IMG/VR virus record: IMGVR_UViG_3300032046_000015
Span: 1 to 64,000 of that record
Direction: 5' to 3' (one strand)
DNA length: 64,000 nucleotides
Source of the DNA: a virus
Shown: piece by piece, positions 22,901-62,043 of the stretch
How the letters are laid out: the number at the start of each line of letters is the position of its first letter
Numbering within the stretch: position 1 is the first letter of the stretch
Made by a program: the position numbers and the translations under genes
The notes under the pieces: generated by a model
The model's input: the letters and a program-made list of their open reading frames with translations, nothing else
Told to the model about the DNA's origin: nothing
Databases searched by the model: none

Positions 22901-23319
22901 CCTTCCACATTGAACCCTGACTTGGATAGAACATCCAATTCACGTCCTGCTCCGCATCCCATCACTAACACATCCTGTCCTTGGATGTATGGACTGATGG
23001 CCGCAAAATCTCTTATGAATAAATCTGTAACATCAATCAGCCCAGGGCTGAAATAGTTTTCACCATACTCTTCATCTGTTGGCATTGATGTTGCCTTCCC
23101 AAGTTGCGTGTAGTTCAGACCACGCTTTATCATCTCATCTCTCAATATATTAAACTTGTTCAGAAGTGTAGCCACAGTCAATCCATCGGTGGACTTACCA
23201 TCGCCAGCCCCTCCTTCAGTTAACAGTGCATACAACTGGTGACAGCGCCAATGTAAGTTCAACAACTCCTGGTTGTCCACCGCTGCTAGACTGTCTTTTG
23301 TGATATCGTTTATTTTCAT
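19963..23319 (-). CDS. Fusion: methyltransferase-like, NTase-like, DNA ligase, LigD-PE-like, XkdF protease
   Basis: 1118 residues in one frame. Residues 115-190 look like a SAM methyltransferase (VLVMGCGAGRELDVL, GVDNS, FDTVLSMHTLEHL). Residues 275-345 have a nucleotidyltransferase pattern (NLVGGSIKQ then HDIDMLI). Residues 390-600 carry ATP-dependent ligase motifs: I EQKYNGWR (K403), III ILDADLG, IIIa AHVFDVLYYDG, IV SEGAVAK, V WSKIKN; an OB-like segment follows to about 670. Residues 735-965 resemble the LigD 3'-phosphoesterase (HTDIRMRPG, KLLKGRWIFQF, REWMIARP). Residues 990-1110 match XkdF proteases (GVMHEDYSRP with H1046; LTGFSIKG with S1101). It sits in the head protease position between MuF-like and scaffold-like genes. 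Motif I has Asn where KxDG has Asp. Domain calls are from motifs. Confidence 0.8.
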   Translation of the reverse strand: MKINDITKDSLAAVDNQELLNLHWRCHQLYALLTEGGAGDGKSTDGLTVATLLNKFNILRDEMIKRGLNYTQLGKATSMPTDEEYGENYFSPGLIDVTDLFIRDFAAISPYIQGQDVLVMGCGAGRELDVLSKSGFNVEGVDNSITAMKLCGQHNHKVKKEDVNKLSYPDGAFDTVLSMHTLEHLSDPNAAIDESLRIARMRAIHLVPLGKRLDLTHKREFKSMDDLRSCMAGYEVAKYIFRTEDNNAVVVFDKTAEAPAQIFNGLGDMVLCPGYINLVGGSIKQQEPHDIDMLIRQDNPDSALEVKVRNQIPEGMRHLVHYVYHASGPHDDHIPLYDLVAVLRPEAKRINVSKADTLKPLQRFIPLKTAGGYSQQEYFTPEEFNTGWAEALLKEKIGIDVEQKYNGWRTVLEADSADKTLIFFEDSKDDRSKQFPSLVDDLKAIGQGVILDADLGAVHDNGRPVARKDLAAWAGNQVVPVSGQLTLADGSKASIIAHVFDVLYYDGQDLHSKPWTERRGILEDLFGKYDFKFMKITPKHVVDNKAALLKIISDVSKQPGSEGAVAKAVNSDYPLTGQTPAWSKIKNLVEIKVQVLSRQTVSGSPRTWNYTVAYEDDKGKLVTLGKTFNTNLDAPDGSIITLGVEEIIPEYDNVADVWKITAVVPKVRDREVGSTKAENIKSIVQRADEGNVLQADPETRAALLESGFKVEKRLAIRKQTEGQLDFKAGDSGTAILQTHERGLTEDQVKLLGGTFHFGVDPIKLTPVQITKLDQIAKGNWTAAIANAADGDSSQLSSLIKGIDKTTLNKDQLKLLALVEPVSIHTDIRMRPGTAPYWEGGEGFTPGNQFQINKFIELDPTHKILANFKTARSDEGGAASGQVIQGPLSWMNVGANKPQSFPPGAVGSTTNAWSRLTIIDKIKWKAGTQDPHYKEFWFDGKLLKGRWIFQFVPVGPGRREWMIARPADQEFPNNPETAKPPATAPTQKAYNTTIIKIDTVKRLVTGIVLEPETFDAQDQIYDAPVIEKAAHDFLAEYNKGSKTGVMHEDYSRPIEVVESWIAPITMMIGDQQVKPGTWIMTVHVTDNETWKQVENNQLTGFSIKGMAVARRLGPERSVA

Positions 23320-38299: not shown

Positions 38300-38803
38300 T
38301 TAACTCTTGGCCAATCCTTCCAAGTCAAAAGACATTTGATCAGTTGCCTTGATACGCCAGTCAATAACATCCTCAGGTTCAAATATCAAATCATTCACCC
38401 TTAATTCCTTGGGTGTTGACTTGGTGCTTGCTTGTATGACGCACCTGATTATACCTGTGTTAATTATGATGCGGACGCACCACTCACATATGTGTGTGTA
38501 TCCGTACATATAAAGTGTAGCACCCATAGCACGTTCACGTCCTGCATGTAGACAAGCATTTGTCTCAGCATGAACTGAACGACATTTGAGATAATCGCTG
38601 CCGTGTGGTATGTTGTTATCCTCTCTGAAGCATTTGCCTATCTTCAAGCAATCCAACCGTTTGCGTGGAGCACCGTTGTAGCCAGTTGAAATGATCTGAT
38701 CATCCTTGACTACAACAGCACCCACTTGCCCTCTCAAGCACTTGGCATTTGAGCCCACTTCCCTGGCAATGCGCAAATAGTATTTGTCCTTGTCTGAAAT
38801 CAT
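38300..38803 (-). CDS. Deoxycytidylate (dCMP) deaminase
   Basis: 167 residues. Zinc-binding deaminase motif HAETNACLHAG (H78, E80) with ICEWCVRIIINTGI (C106, C109) and the typical N-terminal 'R..VGAVvV.d..iistGYNG'. Phage dCMP deaminases turn dCMP into dUMP to feed thymidylate synthesis; here they would serve the ThyX-like enzyme at 57 kb. The start overlaps the MazG-like stop (ATGA), so the two act as a pair on the dNTP pool. Confidence 0.88.
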   Translation of the reverse strand: MISDKDKYYLRIAREVGSNAKCLRGQVGAVVVKDDQIISTGYNGAPRKRLDCLKIGKCFREDNNIPHGSDYLKCRSVHAETNACLHAGRERAMGATLYMYGYTHICEWCVRIIINTGIIRCVIQASTKSTPKELRVNDLIFEPEDVIDWRIKATDQMSFDLEGLAKS

Positions 38804-41766: not shown

Positions 41767-42015
41767 TTAATTCCTTGTTGGCCCATCATATCGCCAGAAT
41801 AATCTGGCTTGAACTGGACTAACATATTTACGCAAATCCCTCTTGTGTACTATCATGGGCAATTCCAGTTTACTCCAATCAACATCGTGAATCAAATACA
41901 CCTTATCACGACTGATCAACTTGGCAGGATTGCTTGATATTAACACAACATACTTGTTTGGTTTACCTTTAAGTTTGTGTTCTCTCATGAATGCTTTGAT
42001 CACTGTCACCGACAT
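41767..42015 (-). CDS. Hypothetical small protein
   Basis: 82 residues (MSVTVIKAFMREHKLKGKPN), basic, with strand segments YVVLISSNPAKLISRDKVYL. Overlaps the UDG gene by 10 nt. No known family. Confidence 0.55.
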   Translation of the reverse strand: MSVTVIKAFMREHKLKGKPNKYVVLISSNPAKLISRDKVYLIHDVDWSKLELPMIVHKRDLRKYVSPVQARLFWRYDGPTRN

Positions 42016-42596
42016 GGTACACCTGTCCTGGCTATTTCCAAAGCCTTTAACAGATCAACTACAAACTGCCCTTCATAAGTATCTGCCTCACGTCCTTGTT
42101 TCCTTAACAGATAAGCAGGATGCCATGTTGATACTGCTTTATATATGTGTCCAGTTATGGATACTGTACTCACCCTGCCCCTTATGACAGACATGTTATC
42201 ATCCACACCTAACACATAGAATGCCGATATGCGTCCAAGCGTCACTATGGCTTTAGGAGACACAGCATTGATCTGCCTTACCAAACGTTGACGGCATGAC
42301 GCACCCCAATTCAAATCTTGTATTTTGTTATCTGGTGGACGGCACATCAAAACGTTTGTTATGTAGGATTGTTCCAAGTCAACTCCTGCTGTATCTGCCA
42401 AACGTTCTAACATAGCACCAGCCCTGCCCACAAACGGAACACCCTGTCTGTCTTCATTTGCTCCTGGTGCCTCTCCTATAAACATGATCTCAGGATTGAT
42501 GCGCCCCTTCCCAAAAACAACATTCTGTCTAGTCTTATGTAACTCACACAGTGTACAAGACTTGTACTTCTCTTGTATCCTCAGTATGCTAGGCAT
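42006..42596 (-). CDS. Uracil-DNA glycosylase, family 4
   Basis: 196 residues from MPSILRIQEKYKSC, ATG with SD GGAGG 6 nt upstream. [4Fe-4S] cysteines are in CTLC, at MCRPPDN and at WGASCRQRL, as in family 4/5 UDGs. Motif A is GEAPGANEDRQGVPFVGRAG and motif B is TWHPAYLLR. It removes uracil from DNA. Its presence together with dCMP deaminase and ThyX suggests control of uracil in the phage genome, and argues against a dU-containing genome. Confidence 0.88.
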   Translation of the reverse strand: MPSILRIQEKYKSCTLCELHKTRQNVVFGKGRINPEIMFIGEAPGANEDRQGVPFVGRAGAMLERLADTAGVDLEQSYITNVLMCRPPDNKIQDLNWGASCRQRLVRQINAVSPKAIVTLGRISAFYVLGVDDNMSVIRGRVSTVSITGHIYKAVSTWHPAYLLRKQGREADTYEGQFVVDLLKALEIARTGVPCR

Positions 42597-43695
42597 GTGT
42601 TGCCTCCATACTGTTTTCATACTGTACCCTTATCCCAATAAGTTGTGGCGTTGGACAAGAATTATGGCAATATTCATTCCCCAGAACAGCACTGATGTCT
42701 CTGGTCAGATAATATGTACACATCTCCTGTATTTGATTTCTGGTGTAATGCTTAGCACCCCTTGGACACACAATCTCTCCATCTCTGGCAACTCCCAATG
42801 ATAACAACTTTTCAAAATTGGACGGTGATAGCATAGTCTTGAAGTCAAGCACTTGTAGCATTTCTTGGGATTTTTCCAGATCACGCACAGACACCATAAA
42901 TTTCATGTTGTCGTTACAATCAAATAATCGGATCAATTTGAGATTGCGCACCACTTGATCTTTGTGTTCTCTTATGGCCAATCTGAGTCTGCTGGCTATT
43001 CCATCCCATTGTGCGCTATCAACATCAAGACTATTAAGCACATTATTCAAATTGCCAAAAGCCTGTATAATCTTTGTTGCGTATGTCTTGCCTATTCCTG
43101 GCACGCCAGGCACATTATCGCTGGTACAACCACTCAAGCATTTGGCATCACTGAATTGACTTGGTGTTAATCCTTTCAAATCCATAAGCCTTTGTTCATT
43201 TACACACTCATCATCAGTCTTGCGTTTTGATAACACCACAGTCCTGTTTGGGCCAACAGCCTGTAACAAGTCTTCATCTCCTGTGTATATAACAACATTA
43301 AAGCCAACTTCAGAATAACGTTTGGCCAATGTATATAATACATCATCTGCTTCATATCCATCCGCTGATGCCTGTCTTATCCCCAAATAAGATAACAGCC
43401 TAATGGCAATTGGTTCCTGTTCGTGTACTGATGCTGTCAATTCATCGTACTGGGCAGATGGCTTGTGGCCTTTATATGTTGGCAGCGTCTGTCTCCTGAT
43501 GTTGTGAATACTATCCCATACCACAACCATGCTTCCACCATAAGTCTCATGTATTTTAAGAATTTGCCTCAAGAAGCCATACACTCCACCTGTTCTCACT
43601 GTTGATCCTTCCCACTCAGTGGTCAGACTATTGAAAGCATAAGCTGCCTTGAATAAAAGGAATTTGGCATCCAGCAATAGTAAATCACAATTCAT
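42589..43695 (-). CDS. 5'-3' exonuclease / flap endonuclease
   Basis: 368 residues; the ATG overlaps the previous stop (ATGA) and starts MNCDLLLLDAKFLLFKAAYA. Metal-site acids lie in SMVVVWDS, ADGYEADDVLYTLAKRYSEV and VIYTGDEDLLQAVG, and the helix-hairpin-helix is PGVPGIGKTYATKIIQAFG, all as in Pol I N-domain / T5 FEN enzymes. It probably removes RNA primers and flaps for the DnaE-type replicase, which has no such domain. Confidence 0.88.
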   Translation of the reverse strand: MNCDLLLLDAKFLLFKAAYAFNSLTTEWEGSTVRTGGVYGFLRQILKIHETYGGSMVVVWDSIHNIRRQTLPTYKGHKPSAQYDELTASVHEQEPIAIRLLSYLGIRQASADGYEADDVLYTLAKRYSEVGFNVVIYTGDEDLLQAVGPNRTVVLSKRKTDDECVNEQRLMDLKGLTPSQFSDAKCLSGCTSDNVPGVPGIGKTYATKIIQAFGNLNNVLNSLDVDSAQWDGIASRLRLAIREHKDQVVRNLKLIRLFDCNDNMKFMVSVRDLEKSQEMLQVLDFKTMLSPSNFEKLLSLGVARDGEIVCPRGAKHYTRNQIQEMCTYYLTRDISAVLGNEYCHNSCPTPQLIGIRVQYENSMEATHA

Positions 43696-44267
43696 GAAAA
43701 TATGCCCATCACACTGTACATGTTTTCCCAACAGCCAGGTGCGTGAAAGAATTTGAAGCCTTGTTCTTTGTATGCGTCTGCCACAGTGAGATCATCATCA
43801 ATCGCATACAAACTGCTGCCCATATCATGTGCTAGTTTAATGGATGATAACACTCCTCTCTTATAATCTTGATCGTGATCTGTGGTTGTTCTCATGTGTA
43901 AACTTATGGTCATCTTGACACCAAACACATCTTTCAACCATATTGTTGTAGCCTGTCGCACCTTCTCATTGCGTCCTGTAAGGAACACAATGTCATGGTA
44001 CATAACTGCAGTTGCCAATACTTCTTGGCTATATGGAATGATCCCATCCTGTAGTATCAATTCAGGATTGAGAAAATTATCCCATTGATCTTGGGTGATG
44101 TGTTTCTTATCACACGATGCTTGCTTCAAACAGAATGGTTCAAGCAAGTCTGGTTGTAGGTATGGACACTTGATCTGGCGACAAGCATCCAAGTCTAGCA
44201 CAGGCTTTAACAAGTGTTGTCGGTGCCTGTTGTCTGCTATGGTGCCATCAATATCAACAACTATCAT
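43692..44267 (-). CDS. HAD-family phosphatase (PNK C-terminal-like)
   Basis: 191 residues. Motif I is VVDIDGTIADNRHR (D5, D7), motif II is IVFLTGRNEKVRQ, and the late acidic motif is LYAIDDDLTVADAYKEQG. This layout matches the 3'-phosphatase domain of polynucleotide kinases and related nucleotidases. An internal Cys/His/Lys insert (IKCPYLQPDLLEPFCLKQAS) is unusual. It probably dephosphorylates DNA ends or nucleotides. Confidence 0.72.
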   Translation of the reverse strand: MIVVDIDGTIADNRHRQHLLKPVLDLDACRQIKCPYLQPDLLEPFCLKQASCDKKHITQDQWDNFLNPELILQDGIIPYSQEVLATAVMYHDIVFLTGRNEKVRQATTIWLKDVFGVKMTISLHMRTTTDHDQDYKRGVLSSIKLAHDMGSSLYAIDDDLTVADAYKEQGFKFFHAPGCWENMYSVMGIFS

Positions 44268-50629: not shown

Positions 50630-53600
50630 TTATATGGCCTTGCGCCATGAATACTGTCTCAATATTTCTACATGCGACCTGTCTTCTAATACCAGGCCAC
50701 CCCTCTCATGCTTAATATCAAACACTGCCACATTGCCCAACACTATCTGTTCTTTGAACTTTAGATAACTGCTGGCAAAGCAAACAGCAGTAAACACACG
50801 GTCAATTGTATCAATGCTAAAGAATGCCATGCCACGTCCATTCTTGTCAATTGTGTGTCGGGCATCTAGGATTAAGCCAGTCATTTCAAATATGTCGTGG
50901 CCTTTTTTCTTCACAGACTTATTGGTACCAACAGCCTTGGACACAGGATGCTCAATGAAATACTGTTCCCAAAATGTCATTGGCTCACCTGTTATTATCT
51001 TGTGTCTTAATATGTCAAGATTGACAACCATATGAGCCTTCAAACTTTTCCATGTACCATGAGTGGATGCGTGTACCCTTAACACAACAGGAGTGCCCAC
51101 GCCATCATCAATGACCTCTCTGAAAATTGGAAATGCATCTATATCCAACTTCACTCTGTTCCATACTCCTGTGGCATCTTCCACATTGAAGTTAGAGTAT
51201 CTAGCACCCCATCTCATCTTTAATCGCTCTTGTTCTGATGGCAATTCTTTGGCACTATAAAAATCACCCACGCAATTATATCTGACATCAATGATTTGTC
51301 CATTCAGATACACAGCACGATTGGTCTTGAATAAATCTGGGTCATCCATGCTAATGAACTTAACATGCTTGCCCAAGCCTTTCAACACATCTCCATATGC
51401 CTCCATTGGGTGTTTACCTAATGGCAATGGACTGACTTCAGCTGCCAGCAGAGCAAAATCTGTTTGGTTATAATCTGGTTCCATTTTACTCTTGGTCAAG
51501 CACTCCTCTATGGCTGTCCAATTGCCCTTGTTAGCCATGGCAAATATGTCCTGTTCGTGCTCCAAGAAATACTTGACATTGGGCAATAGATCAGATAGAG
51601 CACCAGCCTTTGACAGTGCCAATAGTGTTGTTCTCTTTACAAGCCGTCTGTCAACCTTCTGTAACATATCAACCAGTGAAGTATATGGTTGATATTTCAC
51701 AATCTCTTTGATTGAACTTTCACCGACACCTTTTATATCCAATAAACTACATCTAATTTGATTGCCCACAATCGTGAAATTCACTCCTGAATGGTTGGTA
51801 TCTGGCCCAAGCACATCTATTCCTTTTGCTCTTGTCTCTTTTATGAACCTTGTGACCTCTTGTCTGTCTGGTTCATTCTTCAACACTGCCCACATGAACT
51901 CCATAGGATAATGTACCTTCAAAAACATTGTCCAATAAGCAATCACCCCATAAGCGCATGAGTGAGACTTGTTGAATGCGTATGATCCAAAGAATGTAAT
52001 GCCGTCCATTAGTTTATTGGCTTCACCTTCATCCATACCTTTGGACACAGCCCCCACAACAAACCTGTCACGCTCTTTTCCAAGCTTCTCATCACCGTGT
52101 TTCTTTGCCACTAGTTTGCGCAATGAGTCTGCTGTCTCAGGTTCATAGCCAGACAACTCAATAAATATCCTTGTCAGTTGTTCTTGATATACTAACACAC
52201 CGTATGTCTCTTCACATATCTTATCATATATGGGATGGATTGGCTTGATCTTTGTTGGATCATTTTTCCGGTCAATGTAAACGTTTGCCAAGCCACTTCT
52301 CATTGTGCCAGGCCTGTTCAACGCTGTCAATGCTGCCACGTCAGCAAATTGCGTGAATGTTATTTCTTCACACGTCTTGTACATTGATGTAGTGTCAAAT
52401 TGGAAAATGCCAGCAAAATCTAAGTCAGTGAAACCTTGTAACACCTTGGGATCATCCAATGGCAATCGCTCCATATCTATGTCCAGATGGTGTCTATCCT
52501 TGATTGCTGTCAAGGTATCTTTAATGACAGTGAGTGTTCTTAATCCAAGCACATCCAACTTCAACAATCCCATGTCTTCACAACCCCAGAAATTTATTGC
52601 CGCAACCCTAACACGTCTGCCACCTTCATCCTTGGTCTCAATTGGCACAACGTCACATATCGGCACAGGCGATGTCAACACGCCAGCGGCATGTATTCCT
52701 GTCTGTCTGACTTGTCCTTCCAATTCCTTGACAATAGGTAACACATAAGGATAATGGTCATTGAATTTTCTACAAACATCAAATTCCTTGAAACTGTCCT
52801 CAATAGTTTGACTGGCACGCTCATCACCTGAACTCCTCTCTACAATACTGCTGGTGACTGCGTTCACTTCAGTTAGTGGCACATCTAACACACGGCACAC
52901 ATCCTTCAAACATAACTTACCTTTCATAGTAACAGCTGTTCCTATCTGGGAGACATTGCCTATGCCATATTTATCACACAAATGTTGTAATATAAGACCA
53001 CGCTTGCTGTCTTCAAAATCCATATCAATATCCGGCATATCTATTCTGGCTGGAGACATGAACCTTTCAAACAATAATCCATGTTCTATCGGATCAAGTG
53101 ACGTTATGCCCAATAAGTAACACACAAGTGAACCAGCACTGGAACCACGTCCAGGCCCAACCATGATTCCTTCTTGTCTTGCCCAACCAAATAACTCATG
53201 AACCAGAATAAAATATCCACTGAATTTCTGTCTCTTCATGGCAGCTAACTCAAGCAATAAACGTTCTGTGTACGTTTTTCTGTGCTGGACTGGATCAATG
53301 CCTAATTTGGCAGCCTTTTGCTCTATCTGATAATCCATATCACGCCACGGCCAACCGTCCAAGCATAATTGGTGTAGATACACATCGTGTGCTTCTGAGT
53401 CTGATGACGTTGTGTCCTTAATGTTCTGAGGTATGACTACAGGTGGAAGCAAACATTTGAACTTATCCATTACAACTTTGGCCTTACATTTCTCAGCAAT
53501 CTCCATAGTATTACACATAGCATCAGTAATATCTGAACCACTAATGTCATGCTTGGACAGACTTTCCACCATTTCCTTGGGTGTCTTGAACCAAAACTCT

Positions 53601-54397
53601 TGAGTGTCGAATTTGAATCTGTTCGGATTTGTCATCCTATCGTTTGTCTGGATACATAACAAAATTTCTTGATGTTGAGCATTCTCCTGGCGTATATAGT
53701 GGCAATCATTGGTGGCCACCATCTTAATGTTTAGAGCATGGGCAATCTTGACTAAATGCGGTGTCACTCTTAATTGATCTGGAAAAGTGTGAGGCATTAT
53801 CTCTATGTAAAAATCATCCCCAAAATTATCCTTCCACCACATGGCCTCATCGATGGCATCTATTGAATGGCCTTCCAAAATCAGAGATGGTATGTGCCCA
53901 GCTACACAAGCACTGGTAACAACAATTCCATCCTTATATTCCAACAGTGACTGTTTGTCTATCCTTGGCCTGTGATAGAATCCATCCACCCAAGCCTTGC
54001 TTGATAACCTGAACAGATTCTTTAATCCATCATTATTCTTGGCAAACGCACACAAATGCCACCGTGGCCTTATCCCCAAACGTTTTTCCACTTCAAATAT
54101 AGCGTGCTTTTGCTGTGCTTTTGCTGTCTCATCTATGATTTTGGCTTTCATGTCATCAGGCAAACTTTTAACCTTCATGTCAGAGGACATGTAAAACTCT
54201 ATGCCGTATATGGGTGTCATTCCTTCAATACTTTTACAGGTGATTGCCAGATCATAAAATGATCGCATTGAACCATGCTCTGTAACAGCAAAATGTTTGA
54301 GTCCTATTTCTTTGGCATATTGGACATACTTGGACACACTTCCGCAACCATCCAATAAGCTGTATTCTGTGTGCGTATGTAGGTGTACAAAATCCAT
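50630..54397 (-). CDS. dnaE: DNA polymerase III alpha subunit (DnaE-type replicase)
   Basis: 1255 residues, slightly longer than typical bacterial DnaE. The N-terminal PHP domain opens FVHLHTHTEYSLLDG and has ATNDCHYI near residue 228. The palm has GPGRGSSAGSL (414-424) and catalytic PDIDMDF (D456, D458), and a third acid in LDVLGLRTL. The finger region shows SYAFNKSHSCAYGVIAYWT. An OB fold near the C-terminus includes a long variable part. It is the phage replicase. No sliding clamp or loader genes are visible in this window, so it may use host ones or others encoded outside. Confidence 0.95.
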   Translation of the reverse strand: MDFVHLHTHTEYSLLDGCGSVSKYVQYAKEIGLKHFAVTEHGSMRSFYDLAITCKSIEGMTPIYGIEFYMSSDMKVKSLPDDMKAKIIDETAKAQQKHAIFEVEKRLGIRPRWHLCAFAKNNDGLKNLFRLSSKAWVDGFYHRPRIDKQSLLEYKDGIVVTSACVAGHIPSLILEGHSIDAIDEAMWWKDNFGDDFYIEIMPHTFPDQLRVTPHLVKIAHALNIKMVATNDCHYIRQENAQHQEILLCIQTNDRMTNPNRFKFDTQEFWFKTPKEMVESLSKHDISGSDITDAMCNTMEIAEKCKAKVVMDKFKCLLPPVVIPQNIKDTTSSDSEAHDVYLHQLCLDGWPWRDMDYQIEQKAAKLGIDPVQHRKTYTERLLLELAAMKRQKFSGYFILVHELFGWARQEGIMVGPGRGSSAGSLVCYLLGITSLDPIEHGLLFERFMSPARIDMPDIDMDFEDSKRGLILQHLCDKYGIGNVSQIGTAVTMKGKLCLKDVCRVLDVPLTEVNAVTSSIVERSSGDERASQTIEDSFKEFDVCRKFNDHYPYVLPIVKELEGQVRQTGIHAAGVLTSPVPICDVVPIETKDEGGRRVRVAAINFWGCEDMGLLKLDVLGLRTLTVIKDTLTAIKDRHHLDIDMERLPLDDPKVLQGFTDLDFAGIFQFDTTSMYKTCEEITFTQFADVAALTALNRPGTMRSGLANVYIDRKNDPTKIKPIHPIYDKICEETYGVLVYQEQLTRIFIELSGYEPETADSLRKLVAKKHGDEKLGKERDRFVVGAVSKGMDEGEANKLMDGITFFGSYAFNKSHSCAYGVIAYWTMFLKVHYPMEFMWAVLKNEPDRQEVTRFIKETRAKGIDVLGPDTNHSGVNFTIVGNQIRCSLLDIKGVGESSIKEIVKYQPYTSLVDMLQKVDRRLVKRTTLLALSKAGALSDLLPNVKYFLEHEQDIFAMANKGNWTAIEECLTKSKMEPDYNQTDFALLAAEVSPLPLGKHPMEAYGDVLKGLGKHVKFISMDDPDLFKTNRAVYLNGQIIDVRYNCVGDFYSAKELPSEQERLKMRWGARYSNFNVEDATGVWNRVKLDIDAFPIFREVIDDGVGTPVVLRVHASTHGTWKSLKAHMVVNLDILRHKIITGEPMTFWEQYFIEHPVSKAVGTNKSVKKKGHDIFEMTGLILDARHTIDKNGRGMAFFSIDTIDRVFTAVCFASSYLKFKEQIVLGNVAVFDIKHERGGLVLEDRSHVEILRQYSWRKAI

Positions 54398-54412: not shown

Positions 54413-55519
54413 TTAGAATGGTGGTGGAATATAGTTGTTGGCACTCTTCAATAATGATAGTTGGTGACTAACAACCCGCTTCAAGTATTCAGGCAGACTG
54501 GTAGTCAACATCCAGTCCATATATTGCTTGCCTCTATCTGACTTCACTATTTCAGATAATTTTTGACCTTTGAATTTTCCAAATTCCAAACGGGCATCCT
54601 TGCCGTCAGGATCAATGATGAAATTACTTTTGGCAGCTAACTTATCTGCTGCCACACGTGTATCAGTTTTGATTTTGTTTGCTGCTTGAGCAAATGTTCC
54701 TTTTGATTGCTTTTCACTCCTCTCATATACCCATATATCTACACAACCAGTTTGGAGTGAAGCCATTATTCTGATGGCTATCTTTTGGTTGCTCATATCA
54801 TAACACTTGGATACTTCCTGTAATACCACACCAAGAACATCTACATTTCTGTGGTGTAATAACACATCTTTATCAAGTCCAACTATTTTCTTCAAAGGCA
54901 TTCCAACAGATTTGCCAAATTCGTACACAAGCGGTTGGAATGATACATCATAAACATCTCTGGCCGCATCAAATTCAAATTTGATTTCACCATTCGCTAT
55001 TTGCGCTGTAGTGAACCCATGCGACATGATCTGTTCAACGATTATAGTCTCAAGATCATTCCTTGATTGTACAACTACCAGATTGGTAATAGTAAAGAAC
55101 ACAGGTTCAGCGGCCATGATTCTGTCCTTGACCTCTCCTCTGTGTTCAGGTTCAACATCAGGCGGCATGTTTACATATTCTCTTTTGAAGTCTATCCTTG
55201 CCGGATCAATGCCAAGATATTTTCCATCTCCAACGTACACACCATCATGATCTGCTGTAGGAGTTGTGTTGATTGGCTGGTTTGGTTCTTTGTGTGTTTC
55301 TTCAACAGGTATCTTGGACTTGTCTATCTGAAAGGATAGTCCGCACTCAGTACAGGTATAATTGGTGCTGCCCACTGAGCCATACACCCTTTGCATTGTT
55401 GCTCCACAAGCTGGACACTTGAAACGGTTTGAGTTGATCCATTCCACTTCCAGTTTATTGCCCTTCTTGACCAGACCTTCTAATTGCCATCGCTTTCTGG
55501 CTGATTCCAAGCTCACCAT
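54413..55519 (-). CDS. Zinc-ribbon protein with DUF3820-like C-terminus
   Basis: 368 residues from MVSLESARKRWQLEGLVKKG (ATG with AAGGA; a TTG seven codons earlier is less likely). A zinc ribbon FKCPACGATM ... YTCTECGLSF lies near residues 33-62. The last 60 residues (ARLEFGKFKGQKLSEIVKSD) resemble DUF3820. The middle is an alpha/beta region with RSEKQSKGTFAQAANKIKTD. Directly downstream of the kinase, upstream of dnaE. A nucleic-acid role is likely; specific function unknown. Confidence 0.55.
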   Translation of the reverse strand: MVSLESARKRWQLEGLVKKGNKLEVEWINSNRFKCPACGATMQRVYGSVGSTNYTCTECGLSFQIDKSKIPVEETHKEPNQPINTTPTADHDGVYVGDGKYLGIDPARIDFKREYVNMPPDVEPEHRGEVKDRIMAAEPVFFTITNLVVVQSRNDLETIIVEQIMSHGFTTAQIANGEIKFEFDAARDVYDVSFQPLVYEFGKSVGMPLKKIVGLDKDVLLHHRNVDVLGVVLQEVSKCYDMSNQKIAIRIMASLQTGCVDIWVYERSEKQSKGTFAQAANKIKTDTRVAADKLAAKSNFIIDPDGKDARLEFGKFKGQKLSEIVKSDRGKQYMDWMLTTSLPEYLKRVVSHQLSLLKSANNYIPPPF

Positions 55520-56076
55520 GTCCAATTCCTTTTGATCCAATGAAATACCTGCTTAAAGGTATCATCCTTGGTCGTGTGTGTAGTATCTATTCTCATTTTT
55601 GGAAATTGTATCCTTGTAAATATCTTATGTCCAAGCCTGGTCATCTTGTTATATTGTTGTAAATTGATTGGAATTGTTCCGTTGATTCTATCCTTGGCAG
55701 CTTGATATTCGCATTCCATCCATATTATCACAGCTTTTGCCTGTAACATATTAGAATGCCATAAATTAAACAGAAAATTCCAATCACATTTCAAATCCTG
55801 TATTGTACCATACATAATTCCAGATGGCAATGACCTGTCCAGTATAACATCGGTTGGAGCCATTCTCAAGAAATCACTAGCATACACATCTTCATGAAAA
55901 GTATTGATAGCAATTCCATTGGCTTGTAATTGTACAGGATCAACACAAAATTCTTTGCTCTGATCAGGTGATACTCTGAAAGCCTTGTAGATAGGAACAC
56001 ACAACTCTTGCGACAGTCTCAAGGCAACATGAGACTTACCAGCGCCATTCAAACCTTCCAGAATAATAACAGGCAT
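55513..56076 (-). CDS. P-loop nucleotide/nucleoside kinase
   Basis: 187 residues from MPVIILEGLNGAGKS; P-loop GLNGAGKS (8-15). The layout, with DVILDRSLPSGIMYG (DR motif) and VIIWMECEYQAAKDRI, is that of thymidylate/dNMP kinases. Phages with hypermodified thymine encode related P-loop kinases that phosphorylate 5-hydroxymethyl-uracil in DNA, and its place next to a PLP enzyme makes that worth testing. Start overlaps the aminotransferase stop. Confidence 0.7.
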   Translation of the reverse strand: MPVIILEGLNGAGKSHVALRLSQELCVPIYKAFRVSPDQSKEFCVDPVQLQANGIAINTFHEDVYASDFLRMAPTDVILDRSLPSGIMYGTIQDLKCDWNFLFNLWHSNMLQAKAVIIWMECEYQAAKDRINGTIPINLQQYNKMTRLGHKIFTRIQFPKMRIDTTHTTKDDTFKQVFHWIKRNWTW

Positions 56077-57266
56077 CACACCCTCATTGTCTCTGCCACA
56101 GCTTCTTTGAACCTTATTAAGCCTGTGTTAATACTTGACAAATCAACATCCAGGTGAGGATAGACACGCATGCGTGTTGATCTAAAACATCCGCATATGA
56201 GTCCATGACGCATAGCCACCTCACCAAATTTCTTAGCATCCAAACCTGGTGTGTCTAGGCACAGCATCAGACCAGTCCACCTGACCTCTCCTAAAACACC
56301 CTTGAACTCTCCTCTTGATAATTGCTCAAACTCTGCCGCCAAATAATCGCCCAACAAATTGATGCGTGTGAAAACATTTGGTTCAGACAACTCATCCAGT
56401 ACCTTGTGTGCTAGTAAACATGCTATGTTGTTACCACCAAATGTACTGAATTGGCTGCCAGGAGTAAGCACACAGAATGGTTCTATGGCTAGTGTGGCAC
56501 CTATGGGTAATCCTGCGGCCAGTCCTTTAGCAAAGCACATGATATCAGGTTGGACACCATATAAATGTGCCGCTGACCAATCGCCACAACGTCCATGTCC
56601 TGATTGAACTTCATCAAATATCAATGGAATGTTGTGTTTAGCACACATATACCTGATGTGCTTCAACTCCTGTACATCTGGCAAACGCACATCGCTGTTG
56701 TCGTATATGGGGGTGATCATGACTGCTTGAGCATTGTAAAACTCAATATCATTCACTGTGTCGAATGCCATGAATCCAGACAACTCAGGAGCAAAACCAT
56801 TGTGGTGATATGGTGTAATTTCTTGGTTGATTGATGCTGACAAGGCACCATATGTTCTGCCATGAAATGAATTCTTGCGCACCCATATCGTATCACGGCC
56901 AGGTGATCCTTTATCATGATTGTATTTTCTGGCTAGTTTTATGGCAGTCTCAACAGCCCCAGTCCCATCATTGCTGAAAAATACTTGGTCCATCTTGTGT
57001 ATGTTACACAAACGTTCAGCCAATGTCTCTCTTGGTTCAGAATAGAACACGTGGGGTATGTGTACAGGTGGTTGTTTGGTTGCCATGATATCGCACAACC
57101 ACTGAGTAGCCTTGCTAAAACTATTGACGCCTGTGTCGCAATACCAGTCAATCACGTTGTTGTATGTTACGTTTGTGACCATATCGTGCGCCACAGTTTT
57201 TGGATTGCGTGATATTATCTCAAAAGGATAATGGACAACTGTGTCCATGATTCTACTTGGTTTCAT
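56076..57266 (-). CDS. Class III PLP-dependent aminotransferase
   Basis: 396 residues. Signature positions of the acetylornithine/GABA aminotransferase class are all present: FFSNDGTGAVETAIKLAR (96-113, phosphate binding), NSFHGRTYGALS (132-143), LIFDEVQSGHGRCG (D218 to the PLP nitrogen), CFAKGLAAGLPIGA (K247, Schiff base), and FSTFGGN. This is a full enzyme, and it is unusual for a phage. In a nucleotide operon it may transfer or remove amino groups on a modified base or amino-acid adduct. The substrate is not predictable from sequence. Confidence 0.85.
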   Translation of the reverse strand: MKPSRIMDTVVHYPFEIISRNPKTVAHDMVTNVTYNNVIDWYCDTGVNSFSKATQWLCDIMATKQPPVHIPHVFYSEPRETLAERLCNIHKMDQVFFSNDGTGAVETAIKLARKYNHDKGSPGRDTIWVRKNSFHGRTYGALSASINQEITPYHHNGFAPELSGFMAFDTVNDIEFYNAQAVMITPIYDNSDVRLPDVQELKHIRYMCAKHNIPLIFDEVQSGHGRCGDWSAAHLYGVQPDIMCFAKGLAAGLPIGATLAIEPFCVLTPGSQFSTFGGNNIACLLAHKVLDELSEPNVFTRINLLGDYLAAEFEQLSRGEFKGVLGEVRWTGLMLCLDTPGLDAKKFGEVAMRHGLICGCFRSTRMRVYPHLDVDLSSINTGLIRFKEAVAETMRV

Positions 57267-58212
57267 TGTTGTTTATCCTCTTGCCTGTCCATACATCCCT
57301 GCCCCAGAATGATTGATAATCTTCATGGCGTTGAGTTGTGAAACTCCTATATGTTTCAACTGGTGGACGTTGTTGATACAGTTCATAATGTTGGAACAAT
57401 GGGCACATTGGCATGTTGTCCTCTCCTGATACACGCCTTTCATTCTCATGAATGAAGTGACAACCGTTATATGTGTCACCTTCCATACATGGTGGACTTG
57501 CCATTTCATAAAACACTGGATGGACTTTGGTGGCCGTTTCAGACACAATTCCTTGGATGATTGGCCCCCACAATCCCAACTGCAGTATCCAACATGATCT
57601 CTTGCCGATTATGTGGAGCATGCTGTTGATGTTCATCGTCCATGATATTCTGTGTTGCGCTCCAAGTGGCATCAAATCACGGGCATCTTCCATTGGCACT
57701 CCAGCATCAACCAAATCCTTGTACAGCTTTTGAATCTCTCTCATAGCAATGTGGTATGCGTTGTGTAGGATTGGGTTGCTATGTTGAAGTGCTTTGATTG
57801 TGTCGGCAACACGATATGCGCCATCATCAGCAAAGTGTTCCATGGATAGTATCCGCATAGATTGACTCCACCAGCTTGAATCTGCTTGGTTGGGCACTAT
57901 GTCCATTCCTATCCTATCATCATGTTTGTGGCCTATTCTGTGTCTGACTGCTTGTTCACGCCAGCTAACACTCACCCCTTCCATCATGAATGTGAAATAT
58001 ATGGATTCACTGACAGGTATCTTTTGCGCCACCACTTTTCTGAATAAGTCAATCAACCCACCGCTGCCCATGTGATCGTCAGGATCACGTGCGCCTTGAG
58101 CAACTTGCTCAGGAGTGATCAACTGGTTGTTGGTTTTGCTTGCCCACCATATGCTGTATAAGGTTTCAAGCGGCAACCTTGTCCATGATATTAGTGTCAC
58201 TTTTGGTTCCAT
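57253..58212 (-). CDS. ThyX-like flavin-dependent thymidylate synthase
   Basis: 319 residues. AVRHRIGHKHDDRIGM at about 89-104 matches the ThyX RHRxxS region, but the serine is replaced (RHRIGHK). The C-terminal block ARDLMPLGAQHRISWTMNIN (177-196), then HIIGKR, is the standard ThyX substrate/FAD motif. It is longer than usual (about 220-270) with a Cys-rich C-terminal extension (CMEGDTYNGCHF, CPLFQHY). It either makes dTMP or a 5-substituted dUMP; the altered signature allows a changed reaction. Overlaps the aminotransferase by 14 nt. Confidence 0.75.
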   Translation of the reverse strand: MEPKVTLISWTRLPLETLYSIWWASKTNNQLITPEQVAQGARDPDDHMGSGGLIDLFRKVVAQKIPVSESIYFTFMMEGVSVSWREQAVRHRIGHKHDDRIGMDIVPNQADSSWWSQSMRILSMEHFADDGAYRVADTIKALQHSNPILHNAYHIAMREIQKLYKDLVDAGVPMEDARDLMPLGAQHRISWTMNINSMLHIIGKRSCWILQLGLWGPIIQGIVSETATKVHPVFYEMASPPCMEGDTYNGCHFIHENERRVSGEDNMPMCPLFQHYELYQQRPPVETYRSFTTQRHEDYQSFWGRDVWTGKRINNNETK

Positions 58213-58225
58213 AGATTTTTGCGCC

Positions 58226-59119
58226 TCACTTTTCTTGTTTATTTATTGGCAGCAATTGTGCTATTGCTTTTAACACAGCTGGCCAATTATGTACAATCAC
58301 TACTTTGCCCATAAAAGGCTCAAAGGAATGGATGTTGGATTCACTACCATTGTACCATACCACACCCAAACCCATCTTGCTCAAATCATGAACATGCTTG
58401 AAGGAATTTTCAACCACGCACACTCTATCTAGCTTCAATCTGGACAATGCCTCACACTTGTCCCTCTCCCATAAAATGAAATCAACAACTATATTGTGTT
58501 GCTTCAACCACGTCAGTGTGTCTGTATATATTGTGTTAATTAAGTGTGCTGGTCTGGCTGTTAGTATCCCAACCTGATATCCCAATTCTCTTAAATGCTG
58601 TATTCCGTTGACAGCGCCATCAATAGTAGGCAACAAGCCATAACCACCTACCATCCTAAAGTCATGTTTGGCATCCTCATGATCTTTATGAGTGGGGTTG
58701 TCTATCCTTCTGGCTTGTAGCCACTGCGCTTCATAGGCAGCAAATCCGGTGGCATAATCAGCCACTACATCATCCATGTCTAGCACAATTATCTTATGTG
58801 GGCTTGTTATATCGGATAACCACCTGACGTCAACCAAATCAGACTTGGCATAAAATGCTTCAGCAAACTCCTCTGGTTCTATGCCTAAGCAAATCATTAA
58901 AGCCAGCAGGTGCTTGTAAACGTCCACGCACTCTATCAAAGCCTGTCTCCTATCTGCTTGGTTGTCCCGCACATTCTGTTTCAACAACCCCAAAGCCTTC
59001 TTGATCTCCACTGCCTCTTCATGCAATCCGTGTATGTGCTCCAAGAGTGCTTGAGATAAATCTACAACAGGCCAGTGTCGTTGTTGAATTTTCTGACGTT
59101 CCCACATTTCTTTAAGCAT
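58226..59119 (-). CDS. MazG/dUTPase-like domain fused to HAD nucleotidase
   Basis: 297 residues; ATG with GGAG 5 nt upstream. Residues 1-100 are an all-alpha NTP pyrophosphatase-like part (LHEEAVEIKKALG with acidic ligands; ECVDVYKHLLALMICLGIEP). Residues 108-290 are a HAD phosphatase: KIIVLDMDDVVADYATGF (D114, D116), GILTARPAHL, and the final VENSFKHVHDLSKMGLGVVW. A fusion of NTP hydrolysis and dNMP dephosphorylation would remove an unwanted dNTP, for example the unmodified form in a base-replacement pathway. The start lies inside the upstream gene (58-nt overlap). Confidence 0.7.
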   Translation of the reverse strand: MLKEMWERQKIQQRHWPVVDLSQALLEHIHGLHEEAVEIKKALGLLKQNVRDNQADRRQALIECVDVYKHLLALMICLGIEPEEFAEAFYAKSDLVDVRWLSDITSPHKIIVLDMDDVVADYATGFAAYEAQWLQARRIDNPTHKDHEDAKHDFRMVGGYGLLPTIDGAVNGIQHLRELGYQVGILTARPAHLINTIYTDTLTWLKQHNIVVDFILWERDKCEALSRLKLDRVCVVENSFKHVHDLSKMGLGVVWYNGSESNIHSFEPFMGKVVIVHNWPAVLKAIAQLLPINKQEK

Positions 59120-60087
59120 ACATGCTCCACAAAGTCAGATAGTTTGTCCATGATCTTGTCGACAGTTTCACGTGGATTCCAGGAAGCAAATCTGCCCACT
59201 GGTAACACATTAATAGGATAGTTCAATTTTTCAGTCAATGGATATATGTGTCCAGGCAATGTTGCTCTGACACGTCCCAATCTAGCATCCTTGATTGTTT
59301 TTTGGATGATTGTTATAGCCTTAATCCAATCTGGTTCTGTCACTCCAGTGATCTCAGCCATCCATACTTTCTGTTCGCAATCGCTGGTTGATATGCGATG
59401 TGGTCCACCATTCTCAGGAAAATACACATACTTATAGCGCCAGAACATTCTGGAGTGTGTGTGTGTATCTGCTATGTGTACTTTATTACACATAGTGTTA
59501 GGCATATGCCAAGCTGCCACTCTCCTAAACAACCAAAGTGGCAAACTGGTCACTACATAATCGAATGTGTCCACTGTATCATCATCCATATCTATGGACA
59601 CTCCTGTTTGTATCAAACTGAGTTCAACAACTTTGGCTAAATGAATGTTGATGTTTTTTCTGGCACGCTGTACAAAAGTATTAAAATCAATATCAATAAT
59701 TTTTTCCTGCCCTGAGGCAGCATTCATACAAGTATTTGCGTATCCATCCATGGTTCCTCTTGTTTTCAAAAAATGAGCTTGCTGAATCTTTTCTGTTACC
59801 TCACTCAATGGAATGATGTGCTCCTTCCACCATACTGCCCCTTCCACTTCATCAACAAAAAAAGGCACCTTCAATTGAGCCAAAAGTTGCTCCAATTGAG
59901 GGTGCCATTTCAATAATTTCAATCCACCTGATTGCCATGAACCGCCAATCTCTTCTGATATCAGCGTCACATCCAATCCTTGGTTGACTAAATAGTTTGC
60001 TGAAACAAGCCCAAGAATGCCACCACCTAACACAGCGACCTTGGCTGTGTTAGATGGTGTAGTTTGTGTGCGAGTATAGTGTATCAT
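59062..60087 (-). CDS. FAD-dependent oxidoreductase (amine-oxidase fold)
   Basis: 341 residues from MIHYTRTQTTPSNTAKVAVL; a TTG ten codons upstream lies in a hairpin and is rejected. Dinucleotide-binding GGGILGLVSAN (21-31) and VTLISEEIGGSWQSGG match the N-terminus of FAD amine-oxidase/protoporphyrinogen-oxidase-like proteins. A second FAD-contact-like block is DTFDYVVTSLPLWLFRRV. In thymine-hypermodifying phages a flavin enzyme processes amino-acid adducts on DNA; this protein starts the operon that also contains a PLP enzyme. Substrate unknown. Confidence 0.7.
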   Translation of the reverse strand: MIHYTRTQTTPSNTAKVAVLGGGILGLVSANYLVNQGLDVTLISEEIGGSWQSGGLKLLKWHPQLEQLLAQLKVPFFVDEVEGAVWWKEHIIPLSEVTEKIQQAHFLKTRGTMDGYANTCMNAASGQEKIIDIDFNTFVQRARKNINIHLAKVVELSLIQTGVSIDMDDDTVDTFDYVVTSLPLWLFRRVAAWHMPNTMCNKVHIADTHTHSRMFWRYKYVYFPENGGPHRISTSDCEQKVWMAEITGVTEPDWIKAITIIQKTIKDARLGRVRATLPGHIYPLTEKLNYPINVLPVGRFASWNPRETVDKIMDKLSDFVEHVCLKKCGNVRKFNNDTGLL

Positions 60088-60104
60088 CTGTGTTAGGATT
60101 ATAT

Positions 60105-60134
60105 GGGATGAGGCCAACTTGTGGCCTCATTCCC
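60105..60134 (-). promoter_or_regulatory. Hairpin in the 60.1-kb gap (no T-run)
   Basis: On the minus strand GGGAATGAGGCCA pairs with TGGCCTCATCCC (60105-60116 with 60122-60134, one bulge), 1 nt after the stop of the sigma-like gene. It is followed by ATATAATCC, not by a T-run, so it is not a classical terminator. TATAAT here is a possible -10 box for the FAD operon, but no good -35 is seen. Confidence 0.5.
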
Positions 60135-60135
60135 T

Positions 60136-61176
60136 TTACACGTGGATGACACCGTCTGTGTTCAGTTTCTGTATAGCCTTGACCACGCCATCGGTATTGG
60201 CCTCAACCACGCCCATGAGTCTGGCCTTGAACGCTCCATCAAACGCTGTGTCCTTGATGTCTGTCTTGAATGGTACAGCCTTTTGAGCGATATTTGTGTC
60301 TGGACATGGCAACCCCACATCGATGTTTCCGGTGCGTGGTTTGATATAAAGGATAGCCAGACCTTGCTCCCTGCCTGTAGTCTTATGGCAGTACATGGTC
60401 AGGTATCCAGAACCACCACCGCCCAATGGCGTCTTGTCGATGATGTAAAAATCGCCATCATTCTGTGCCGCTGCTTTGTCCATTAACGTCTTGCTGAACG
60501 CTGCCGCTATCTTGTGGGCCAGAGTCATGGCCAAGAGTCTGGACGGATTGTTAGGATCAAGCATGCCCGATATGACCTTGGGTTTTGGTTCTGCCTTGGC
60601 CTTGGGAGCAGCCTTCTTTGTCTCCTCTCCTGCTGGTTCTGTCGCTGGCTCAGAAGCATCCGCAGGGGCTGGTTTTTCTTTGGCCTTGGTATCCGATTGA
60701 GGCTTGGCTGTTGCTTTGGCAGCTTTGGGTTTTTCCTTGGCAGCTTTGGGCTTGCTTTTGTCCGGTTTGGCCTTGGCATCTGCTGTTTCCGCAGGAGTTT
60801 CAGTTGATGTGTCCGCTTTGGGTGCTTCCGCTGGCGCTGGCGTTGGTGTGTCCGCTTTGGGTGCTTCCTGTTTAGCCTTCTTGCCTTTGGACTTGCCACC
60901 CTTCTTCATCAACTCAGTTCCCTTCTGAAGCAGTGCGATGATTCCATCCTCTCCTGCTGTTGCGGCTGTTTTGACGATGTTAGTCCATTCGCCACCCTCA
61001 GCTTCTGCCACCGCTCTGGCGGCATCAGCTATAGGTTTGCACTCATCACGTTTGGCACATGGTTCCTTTTCCTTTTCCTGTTTGGCTGATGGGTTGCCAT
61101 CGCACTCTGCGAGTCCAACCTCATAAAAGCCAACGCATCCACCACTTCCCTGTTCATCCTTCTGTTCGTCTGACAT
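60136..61176 (-). CDS. Internal-start product: Cys-rich / Ala-Lys-rich protein
   Basis: 346 residues starting MSDEQKDEQGSGGC at the ATG 61174-61176, with GGAGGTGA 5-6 nt upstream, one of the best SDs in the window. It begins in the same frame as the sigma-like part, so the short form is a C-terminal segment of the long one. It has three Cys in the first 50 residues (CVGFYEVGLAECDG, PCAKRDECK), then more than 100 residues of Lys/Ala/Pro/Glu repeats, then a folded domain (MLDPNNPSRLLAMTLAHKIA, FYIIDKTPLGGGG). Unknown; the basic linker could bind DNA. Confidence 0.6.
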   Translation of the reverse strand: MSDEQKDEQGSGGCVGFYEVGLAECDGNPSAKQEKEKEPCAKRDECKPIADAARAVAEAEGGEWTNIVKTAATAGEDGIIALLQKGTELMKKGGKSKGKKAKQEAPKADTPTPAPAEAPKADTSTETPAETADAKAKPDKSKPKAAKEKPKAAKATAKPQSDTKAKEKPAPADASEPATEPAGEETKKAAPKAKAEPKPKVISGMLDPNNPSRLLAMTLAHKIAAAFSKTLMDKAAAQNDGDFYIIDKTPLGGGGSGYLTMYCHKTTGREQGLAILYIKPRTGNIDVGLPCPDTNIAQKAVPFKTDIKDTAFDGAFKARLMGVVEANTDGVVKAIQKLNTDGVIHV

Positions 61177-61965
61177 GTCGTCACCTCCAGTTAAAATTTG
61201 GCCAACCAAAGATTGGCTTGTCAATACACAAGATTTTTCGCCTGTGTCCTTATTATTTGATGTTGTAGCTAAAAGTATCATTTTGGCCTTGATCCTTTTT
61301 AAGCTGCTTTTAATTTGTCCAGTTGTTGCTCCTATCTTTTGAGATAGATAACTGATCACCTGAAAACTGCGAGTCAACACTTCTGCCAAATCCCGCAAGT
61401 CTTGTGGTGGATTCAGAACCATCTGTAGCACCTTCCTGTCTATAGGTTTGTCCAAAGATTCAAACAAACGTTGCCTATTCATTTTGGACACACGATTATG
61501 TTCCAAATCCATCAATATGGTTTCTGGTGTATTTCTGTGTACAAGCCAACAATCCTCTCTCTTATGGGCATGGTGGCCTAATGCCAATGGCTCCTCTGCC
61601 AACCATTGTTCTGGACTTGGATACACAGAATGTGGGCTCAATTGTACTTTGTTGGTTTCGCTGTCTATATAATGTGGATTGCGCTTTTGTGCGAAGTGAT
61701 ATGATATAATCATGGGCGCCACATTATTCAGAGATTGGTAGAAATATGTGCTAAATTTGACACCTTTGTTGGGATCAAATTTCACCATAGCAGCCATAAG
61801 AGTCATCCTGAACATCTGTTCAATATCTGCCACATCCTCTCCTATCTTGAATGATAGTTGTATGGCCTTCTTGTGTATGAGTGGTGCTACACCATTCAAC
61901 ACCGTCTCAAACTTTTTTCTCACTTCATCCGGACAAGTGAAATTGTCTGGTACCAATTTGATCAT
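60136..61965 (-). CDS. Sigma-70 region-2-like domain fused to Ala/Lys-rich protein
   Basis: About 609 residues from MIKLVPDNFTCPDEVRKK; MKGWQIMIKL six codons earlier is an alternative. Residues about 48-85 (ADIEQMFRMTLMAAMVKFDP, GVKFSTYFYQSLNNV) match sigma region 2.1-2.3 (DL.Q.g..gl..A...FDp..G.kFsTYa....r). A later helix pair (LTRSFQVISYLSQKIGATTG) could be region 4. From 61176 the frame continues, without a stop, into MSDEQKDEQGSGGC and an Ala/Lys/Pro low-complexity stretch, then a C-terminal domain. The internal ATG has a strong SD, so two products are likely. Sigma role, as for T4 gp55, is inferred. Confidence 0.65.
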   Translation of the reverse strand: MIKLVPDNFTCPDEVRKKFETVLNGVAPLIHKKAIQLSFKIGEDVADIEQMFRMTLMAAMVKFDPNKGVKFSTYFYQSLNNVAPMIISYHFAQKRNPHYIDSETNKVQLSPHSVYPSPEQWLAEEPLALGHHAHKREDCWLVHRNTPETILMDLEHNRVSKMNRQRLFESLDKPIDRKVLQMVLNPPQDLRDLAEVLTRSFQVISYLSQKIGATTGQIKSSLKRIKAKMILLATTSNNKDTGEKSCVLTSQSLVGQILTGGDDMSDEQKDEQGSGGCVGFYEVGLAECDGNPSAKQEKEKEPCAKRDECKPIADAARAVAEAEGGEWTNIVKTAATAGEDGIIALLQKGTELMKKGGKSKGKKAKQEAPKADTPTPAPAEAPKADTSTETPAETADAKAKPDKSKPKAAKEKPKAAKATAKPQSDTKAKEKPAPADASEPATEPAGEETKKAAPKAKAEPKPKVISGMLDPNNPSRLLAMTLAHKIAAAFSKTLMDKAAAQNDGDFYIIDKTPLGGGGSGYLTMYCHKTTGREQGLAILYIKPRTGNIDVGLPCPDTNIAQKAVPFKTDIKDTAFDGAFKARLMGVVEANTDGVVKAIQKLNTDGVIHV

Positions 61966-62043
61966 AATTTGCCATCCTTTCATAAGTGTGCTTGGCCCCA
62001 CCACTCCAAGCACGTGTCCCGTTGGACATGACCTTGTGTCCAA

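Follow-up and report, generated by a model that had tools for sequence, protein, structure and literature searches.

What would lead a phage to keep a relative of the thymidylate synthase ThyX, an enzyme fusion of the MazG/HAD type, a nucleotide kinase, a flavin enzyme and an aminotransferase together as one block? We addressed this question for a five-gene cassette in the uncultured virus record IMGVR_UViG_3300032046_000015, of which bases 1-64000 out of 83,016 were analyzed (the window). The genome belongs to a contractile-tailed phage, in which genes for the sheath, tape measure, portal and large terminase are recognizable. All five cassette genes lie on the minus strand and encode, in transcription order, a flavin adenine dinucleotide (FAD)-dependent oxidoreductase (59062-60117, start TTG), a MazG/HAD fusion (58226-59119), a ThyX-like enzyme (57253-58212), a class III pyridoxal phosphate (PLP) aminotransferase (56076-57266) and a thymidylate-kinase-like P-loop enzyme (55513-56079). 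The junctions between them measure -58, 13, -14 and -4 nucleotides and, because they overlap or are short, we treat the five genes as an operon. A preliminary description of this DNA, made from its letters alone, had reported these reading frames, and they were found on the minus strand at its positions. For the FAD protein, the in-frame ATG gives the start it listed at 60087, while an upstream TTG extends the frame to 60117. Its domain calls also stand, apart from corrections for the ThyX motif, the HAD half of the fusion and the P-loop enzyme that are given below.

The reading that we favor, and consider reasonably probable, is that the module exchanges the dTTP of the precursor pool for a 5-substituted dUTP, as a precursor-level pathway for a modified deoxyuridine (dU). 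Modifications of phage DNA protect against restriction and CRISPR nucleases. To our knowledge, where the genes of a thymine-base pathway are known, the pathway relies on a ThyA-type synthase and on tailoring at the DNA level. If correct, our reading would provide a new precursor-level route via a divergent ThyX and a transaminase, possibly leading to a new base, and would define a ThyX subfamily with new chemistry. The five-gene set would then be a signature for finding such phages, and may help to explain how enzymes of the ThyX type initiate hypermodified bases, for example in phage SP-15, a question that has long been open.

Conservation of the five-gene block

The first related contig, identified by a protein scan, has the same gene order as the window. 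Its ThyX protein is 64% identical, the FAD protein, MazG/HAD fusion, aminotransferase and kinase are 27-32% identical, and the DnaE encoded nearby is 45% identical. Motif scans and an alignment scan added further relatives to give more than 20 contigs in total. Once contigs with 100% identical ThyX proteins had been merged, at least 15 distinct phage lineages from IMG/VR carried all five genes in a single block; for one of them, the block was pieced together from fragments L014 and L023, whose ThyX proteins are identical. Most cassette genes show 25-40% identity across the lineages. The ThyX relative, at 36-64%, is the most strongly conserved gene of the block. The order of the ThyX and aminotransferase genes is swapped in four contigs (L007, L011, L012 and L015), and ThyX lies downstream of the kinase in L018. 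All five genes are present wherever the flanking sequence of a contig is long enough to show them (L022 stops about 1 kb upstream of ThyX). The recurrence in at least 15 distinct lineages places the linkage beyond chance, and the retention of all five genes despite reordering and identities of 25-35% is strong evidence for a joint function. Thus, the earlier proposal of a thymidine-modification operon holds in the broad sense that the operon is conserved in phages and its parts suit the replacement of thymidine.

Cellular relatives were not found in scans of 84,980 genomes; a single candidate, in a Gemmatimonadota metagenome-assembled genome, turned out to be a chance reading frame. A scan of viral contigs with the aminotransferase as a single sequence yielded no relative, and neither the kinase alone nor the FAD protein alone had a match among isolated phages.

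Cassette enzymes and a proposed nucleotide-level route

The ThyX relative matches Pfam Thy1 (5e-19). Against TIGR02170, cassette members score 38-61 bits (61.2 for the window), below the curated equivalog cut-off of 87.9. For comparison, the homolog from Listeria phage LIS04 scores 25 bits, an ordinary ThyX carried additionally by one cassette phage (G012) 109.4 bits, and that of a Bacillus phage 188.9 bits. An AlphaFold2 (AF2) model of the window protein has a predicted local distance difference test score (pLDDT) of 76, falling below 50 for residues 89-120 in the insertion region described below. The top Foldseek matches of the model were all ThyX (E 2e-7, TMt up to 0.64), and on this model the protein has the ThyX fold. 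In a phylogenetic tree, the cassette proteins form their own clade with respect to ordinary phage ThyX (support 100/99).

The preliminary description had noted an altered RHR motif. The motif is in fact intact (R90-H91-R92, 57937-57945) and invariant in 16 relatives. The difference from ordinary ThyX instead lies in an insertion of 18-25 residues directly after it (residues ~94-111 in the window, with conserved G, D and P) and in the motif that follows, which reads S-x-W-[ST]-Q-[ST]-x-R (S113-W-W-S-Q-S-M-R120 in the window) rather than S-x-N-E-x-S-x-R. The ThyX signature RHRxxSxNExSxR is consequently not matched: RHR and S-x-R remain, but the insertion separates them and N-E has been substituted. 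Also retained is the arginine that aligns with the uracil-contacting residue of ThyX. Three cysteines (C242, C251 and C270), invariant in 16 sequences, lie in a C-terminal region that is absent from short ThyX proteins and may form a metal site.

These shared features raise the possibility that the cassette serves ordinary dTMP supply, with a divergent ThyX, a dTMP kinase and housekeeping enzymes raising dTTP for replication. The fold, the retained RHR and S-x-R elements and the dTMP-kinase homology would suit this role, as would the fact that most cassette records show no further thymidylate synthase. However, it leaves unexplained why an aminotransferase, an amine-oxidase-type enzyme and a fusion of the dTMP/dTTP-clearing type are fixed in the block, and it sits poorly with the missed ThyX cut-off and the changed motif. 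Furthermore, the ordinary ThyX of G012 (L033:1111-1770; G012:C1, 70631-73786) scores above the curated cut-off, so that the cassette protein is not needed there for dTMP. Together with its sub-threshold score and separate clade, this co-occurrence indicates that the cassette protein is not simply the thymidylate synthase of G012. We therefore regard ordinary dTMP supply as improbable, and propose the ThyX relative as a candidate 5-substituted dUMP synthase.

The neighboring enzymes point in the same direction. The C-terminal HAD half of the fusion matches NT5C in 12 of 13 relatives (best 3.7e-17) and solved 5'(3')-deoxyribonucleotidases of the human family (3e-7), and is predicted to be specifically a deoxypyrimidine 5'-nucleotidase. 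The N-terminal half is all-alpha and matches MazG (1.8e-4) and dUTPase_2 (1.1e-4) in some relatives. Conserved residues comprise E34, E35 and D66 in the pyrophosphatase part, D114-x-D116, TARP and K221. By homology, the two halves would be able to remove dTTP and dTMP, in agreement with the earlier suggestion that the fusion is suited to removing a competing nucleotide. The kinase matches Thymidylate_kin (1.5e-5) and the phrog_761 thymidylate kinases (1e-13), and its profile retrieves SPbeta YorR (3e-13) and thymidylate kinases (2e-9). Its P-loop, D64, D81-R82 and R131 are invariant across the family. The assignment as a P-loop enzyme was thus correct, whereas the resemblance is to thymidylate and deoxynucleotide kinases rather than to a kinase acting on DNA, and we propose that it phosphorylates the modified dUMP.

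The remaining two proteins suggest the nature of the side chain. The aminotransferase matches Aminotran_3 at 1e-64, and its profile matches acetylornithine aminotransferase at 4e-104; D218, K247 (the PLP lysine) and G136-R137-T138 are invariant in 13 relatives. Its sequence places it as a class III PLP enzyme of the acetylornithine/ornithine type, with a profile that groups with omega-aminotransferases. The FAD protein shows matches to Pfam DAO (8e-6) and NAD_binding_8 (1e-4) that are both near or under the cut-off; GGLK, KTR and GR-x-A-x-W-x-x-R-x-T-x-D are invariant in the family alignment. Its AF2 model (pLDDT 78) is closest in Foldseek to PF1083, nicotine oxidoreductase, UDP-galactopyranose mutase, monoamine oxidase and renalase (2e-13 to 1e-12), which assigns the modeled fold to the amine-oxidase/UDP-galactopyranose-mutase/renalase type. 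The placement of the flavin enzyme among amine oxidases and of the PLP enzyme among omega-aminotransferases suggests amine chemistry, and the side chain is probably amine-bearing.

Taken together, a nucleotidase, a pyrophosphatase, a dTMP-kinase-like enzyme and a diverged thymidylate synthase are the set expected for thymine replacement in the precursor pool, and catalytic residues are kept in the aminotransferase, kinase, pyrophosphatase and nucleotidase. In the route that we propose, dUMP would come from dCMP deaminase and from host or phage turnover of dUTP and dTTP. The MazG/NT5C fusion would convert dTTP to dTMP and on to thymidine, keeping ordinary thymine out of the DNA. The ThyX-fold enzyme would place a one-carbon or larger unit on C5 of dUMP without finishing the product as dTMP, and the flavin enzyme and aminotransferase would convert the side chain to an amine, or supply one. 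In the simplest version, 5-hydroxymethyl-dUMP would be oxidized to 5-formyl-dUMP and transaminated to 5-aminomethyl-dUMP. The thymidylate-kinase-like enzyme would then make the diphosphate and a host kinase the triphosphate, which the phage DnaE would use, so that the modified base would stand in place of some or all of the thymine in phage DNA. We infer the substrates and products, the order of the ThyX, flavin and aminotransferase steps and the incorporation of the base from the genes present, their conserved linkage, the enzyme families, the kept catalytic residues and the failure to find enzymes of DNA-level hypermodification. The specific product 5-aminomethyl-dU is possible but doubtful; 5-NmdU reportedly exists in DNA, as the title of one work indicates. 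The main alternative product would bear a longer chain, like that of SP-15.

Does the modification act on nucleotides or on DNA? The preliminary description had viewed the operon as a version of the pathway of phages ViI and M6. That pathway acts on DNA, through a 5-hydroxymethyl-dU (hmdU)-DNA kinase (HMUDK, PF18723), an amino-acid:DNA transferase (ADDT, PF18724) and a ThyA-type synthase (PF00303). We searched 18 cassette phage records (that of the window and 17 others), with phage M6 as a positive control. ADDT, HMUDK and the ThyA-type synthase were found in 0/18 cassette records and were all detected in M6 (2.3e-48, 1.4e-57 and 5.5e-20, respectively). Thus, neither the transferase nor the hydroxymethylase, for which the preliminary description had proposed a profile search elsewhere in the genome, was found by these profiles. 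Several records are fragments, which makes absence from any single one weak; the block itself never contains ADDT, HMUDK or ThyA. On these grounds we reject membership in the ViI/M6 group.

The resemblance that suggested it is nonetheless real, since M6, ViI and PaMx11 also have, close to a polymerase gene, a thymidylate-synthase homolog and a P-loop kinase as well as PLP and flavin enzymes. A post-replicative mechanism of their type, in which the P-loop kinase phosphorylates hmdU in DNA before the attachment of an amino acid that is then trimmed by PLP and flavin enzymes, would account for this grouping. It is contradicted by the search results, by the alignment of the kinase with dTMP and deoxynucleoside kinases and by the fixation of a pool-clearing fusion enzyme in the block; the PLP gene of M6, moreover, has a PALP fold, in contrast to the class III fold of the cassette enzyme. 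We give this mechanism little credence. The similarity of the kinase to dTMP kinases, beside a pool-clearing neighbor, argues rather for synthesis at the nucleotide level before replication.

Genome context and points weighing against the proposal

Two genes outside the cassette could bear on nucleotide supply. A dCMP-deaminase-family gene (38300-38803, minus strand; dCMP_cyt_deam_1 2.5e-16, ComEB 1.7e-13) may supply dUMP; the family is present in 8/18 cassette records. A gene of the uracil-DNA glycosylase (UDG) superfamily (42006-42620, minus strand; PF03167 1e-27) has counterparts in 15/22 cassette records, and its product may remove plain uracil from DNA made in a dUMP-rich pool.

Several observations weigh against a precursor-level pathway. 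A dCMP deaminase was not found in more than half of the 18 records, many of which are fragments, and the MazG half of the fusion scores weakly on Pfam. Enzymes of the amine-oxidase fold mostly oxidize C-N rather than C-O bonds, which makes the step from hydroxymethyl to formyl a guess. Finally, palindromes are under-represented in the whole record, including those that contain T: TGCA occurs 156 times against 908 expected, TTTAAA 0 against 28, AGATCT 0 against 25, and CTTAAG is also absent. Full protection from restriction at T would make such avoidance unnecessary. The T-free CGCG is avoided too (0 against 152 expected), and M6, which has modified T, also avoids TGCA. The palindrome test is confounded by host and phage methylases and speaks only mildly against our proposal.

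Beyond the cassette lie a Zn-ribbon protein with an ExoX-like C-terminal domain (54413-55540, minus strand; ExoX-like_C 2.9e-5, Zn_Ribbon_TF 8e-4) and, after it, dnaE (50630-54397, minus strand), which encodes a DnaE-type DNA polymerase III alpha with PHP, DNA_pol3_alpha, finger and HHH_6 domains. Only the C-terminal piece of the Zn-ribbon protein recurs in relatives, and it is probably a replication protein outside the pathway. DnaE is 34-50% identical in relatives and is encoded downstream of the cassette in most lineages. The dnaE matches of L009, L011, L012 and L018 are interrupted at query residue ~804-811 by 816-879 extra nucleotides, likely an intein or other insertion.

Some lineages carry further genes at the block. 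A methyltransferase-like family with no Pfam match and a glycine-rich ELFGGSGW motif occurs inside or beside it in four lineages (L008:4454-5266; L014:814-1617, in the L014/L023 lineage; L010:7121-7912; L017:1560-2327). The block of L034/L035 is flanked by a replication-type ATPase and a sulfotransferase, the latter directly after the cassette kinase (L034:528-1301), with no DnaE within the fetched stretch. The methyltransferase-like protein and the sulfotransferase might further decorate the side chain in these lineages.

Three other reading frames of the window deserve mention. The frame at 60136-62043 joins a sigma-70-region-2-like part to an acidic part with CxxC motifs of the Zn type. In relatives such as L013 and L016, each part is encoded by a gene of its own, the two lying side by side; the frame represents a fusion or a lost stop codon. 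A frame at 19963-23319 (1118 residues) combines methyltransferase-like, possible ligase-like and head-maturation-protease-like parts in one chain. A second HAD protein, of the PNKP-phosphatase type (43692-44267), adjoins a 5'-3' exonuclease gene.

Comparison with known thymine-replacement systems

A close precedent in logic is that of the SPO1/SP8-type Bacillus phages with hmdU, which use a modified dUMP synthase, removal of dTTP and dTMP, and a kinase for the modified dUMP. The cassette as we interpret it would follow the same precursor-level scheme. It differs in having a ThyX-type enzyme, with PF00303 not found, in place of the ThyA-type hydroxymethylase, and in its aminotransferase and amine-oxidase-type enzyme, steps that those phages lack.

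Phages with dU-DNA provide a second parallel. PBS1 has a proven dTMP phosphatase, likened to the mitochondrial deoxyribonucleotidase and thus to the structural family that the nucleotidase half of the fusion matches, and PhiR1-37 a dTTP pyrophosphatase that has been shown biochemically to clear thymine nucleotides from the pool (PMC12697855). Across the dU-DNA phages PBS1, DSS3_VP1 and PhiR1-37 (Dcd, Dtm, Dtt), these two activities remove T from the pool (PMC12697855); in the cassette they apparently occur fused in one protein. Domains of the dTMP-phosphatase and dTTP-pyrophosphatase types plus a deaminase in effect reproduce the known dU-DNA set, and the cassette phages could accordingly carry plain dU-DNA as in PBS1, with the fusion removing T nucleotides, the kinase acting on dUMP and the remaining genes unrelated. 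The UDG-family gene in 15 of the 22 records argues against this, and the ThyX relative, supposedly unrelated, is the best-conserved gene of the block; the cassette also adds the aminotransferase and flavin enzyme to the shared activities. We consider plain dU-DNA very improbable.

The remaining comparison is with SP-15. When 50,697 phage records were searched with the ThyX relative, the best full-length match came from LIS04, which is filed in the SP-15 genus. The LIS04 protein (hidden Markov model (HMM) match 1.5e-38) has the same variant motif, S-Y-W-T-Q-T-x-R. In the tree, it and a relative from contig L044 lie on the side of the cassette proteins. It is the closest relative from an isolated phage. 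SP-15 also adds sugars to its base, in which it differs from the cassette as compared here. The aminotransferase was not found in LIS04, SP-15 or L044. In SP-15, the base is synthesized at the nucleotide level, ahead of replication; of the two ThyX genes in its genome, gp130 is thought to start dihydroxypentyluracil (PMC5977210). Comparison of gp130 with the ThyX relative revealed no detectable homology (HMM E 0.006, hhalign probability 9%). A link through gp130 is therefore not established, LIS04 alone being solid, and the connection of the cassette to SP-15 is suggestive only.

An SP-15-like pathway would have the ThyX relative join C5 of dUMP, through a C-C bond, to a longer aldehyde or amine chain supplied by the flavin enzyme and aminotransferase, giving a 5-aminoalkyl analog of dihydroxypentyl-dU at the nucleotide level. 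The timing of base synthesis in SP-15, its two ThyX genes and the W-x-Q variant shared with LIS04 speak for this version. The lack of detectable relationship to gp130 and the missing aminotransferase speak against it. We rate it as unlikely.

We return to a modified dU built in the precursor pool. The cassette may, as a tentative extension, be a portable module unmatched to described systems, in which a ThyX-fold enzyme that has moved away from methylation, with its insertion at the active-site motif and a possible metal site at the three invariant cysteines, acts with transamination and fused dTTP/dTMP destruction to yield a new 5-aminoalkyl-dUTP and hence a positively charged thymine substitute in DNA. 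Set beside the SPO1/SP8-type, dU-DNA, ViI/M6 and SP-15 phages, and as judged from limited literature, it is a conserved and apparently undescribed variant of phage thymine replacement that probably operates at the nucleotide level.

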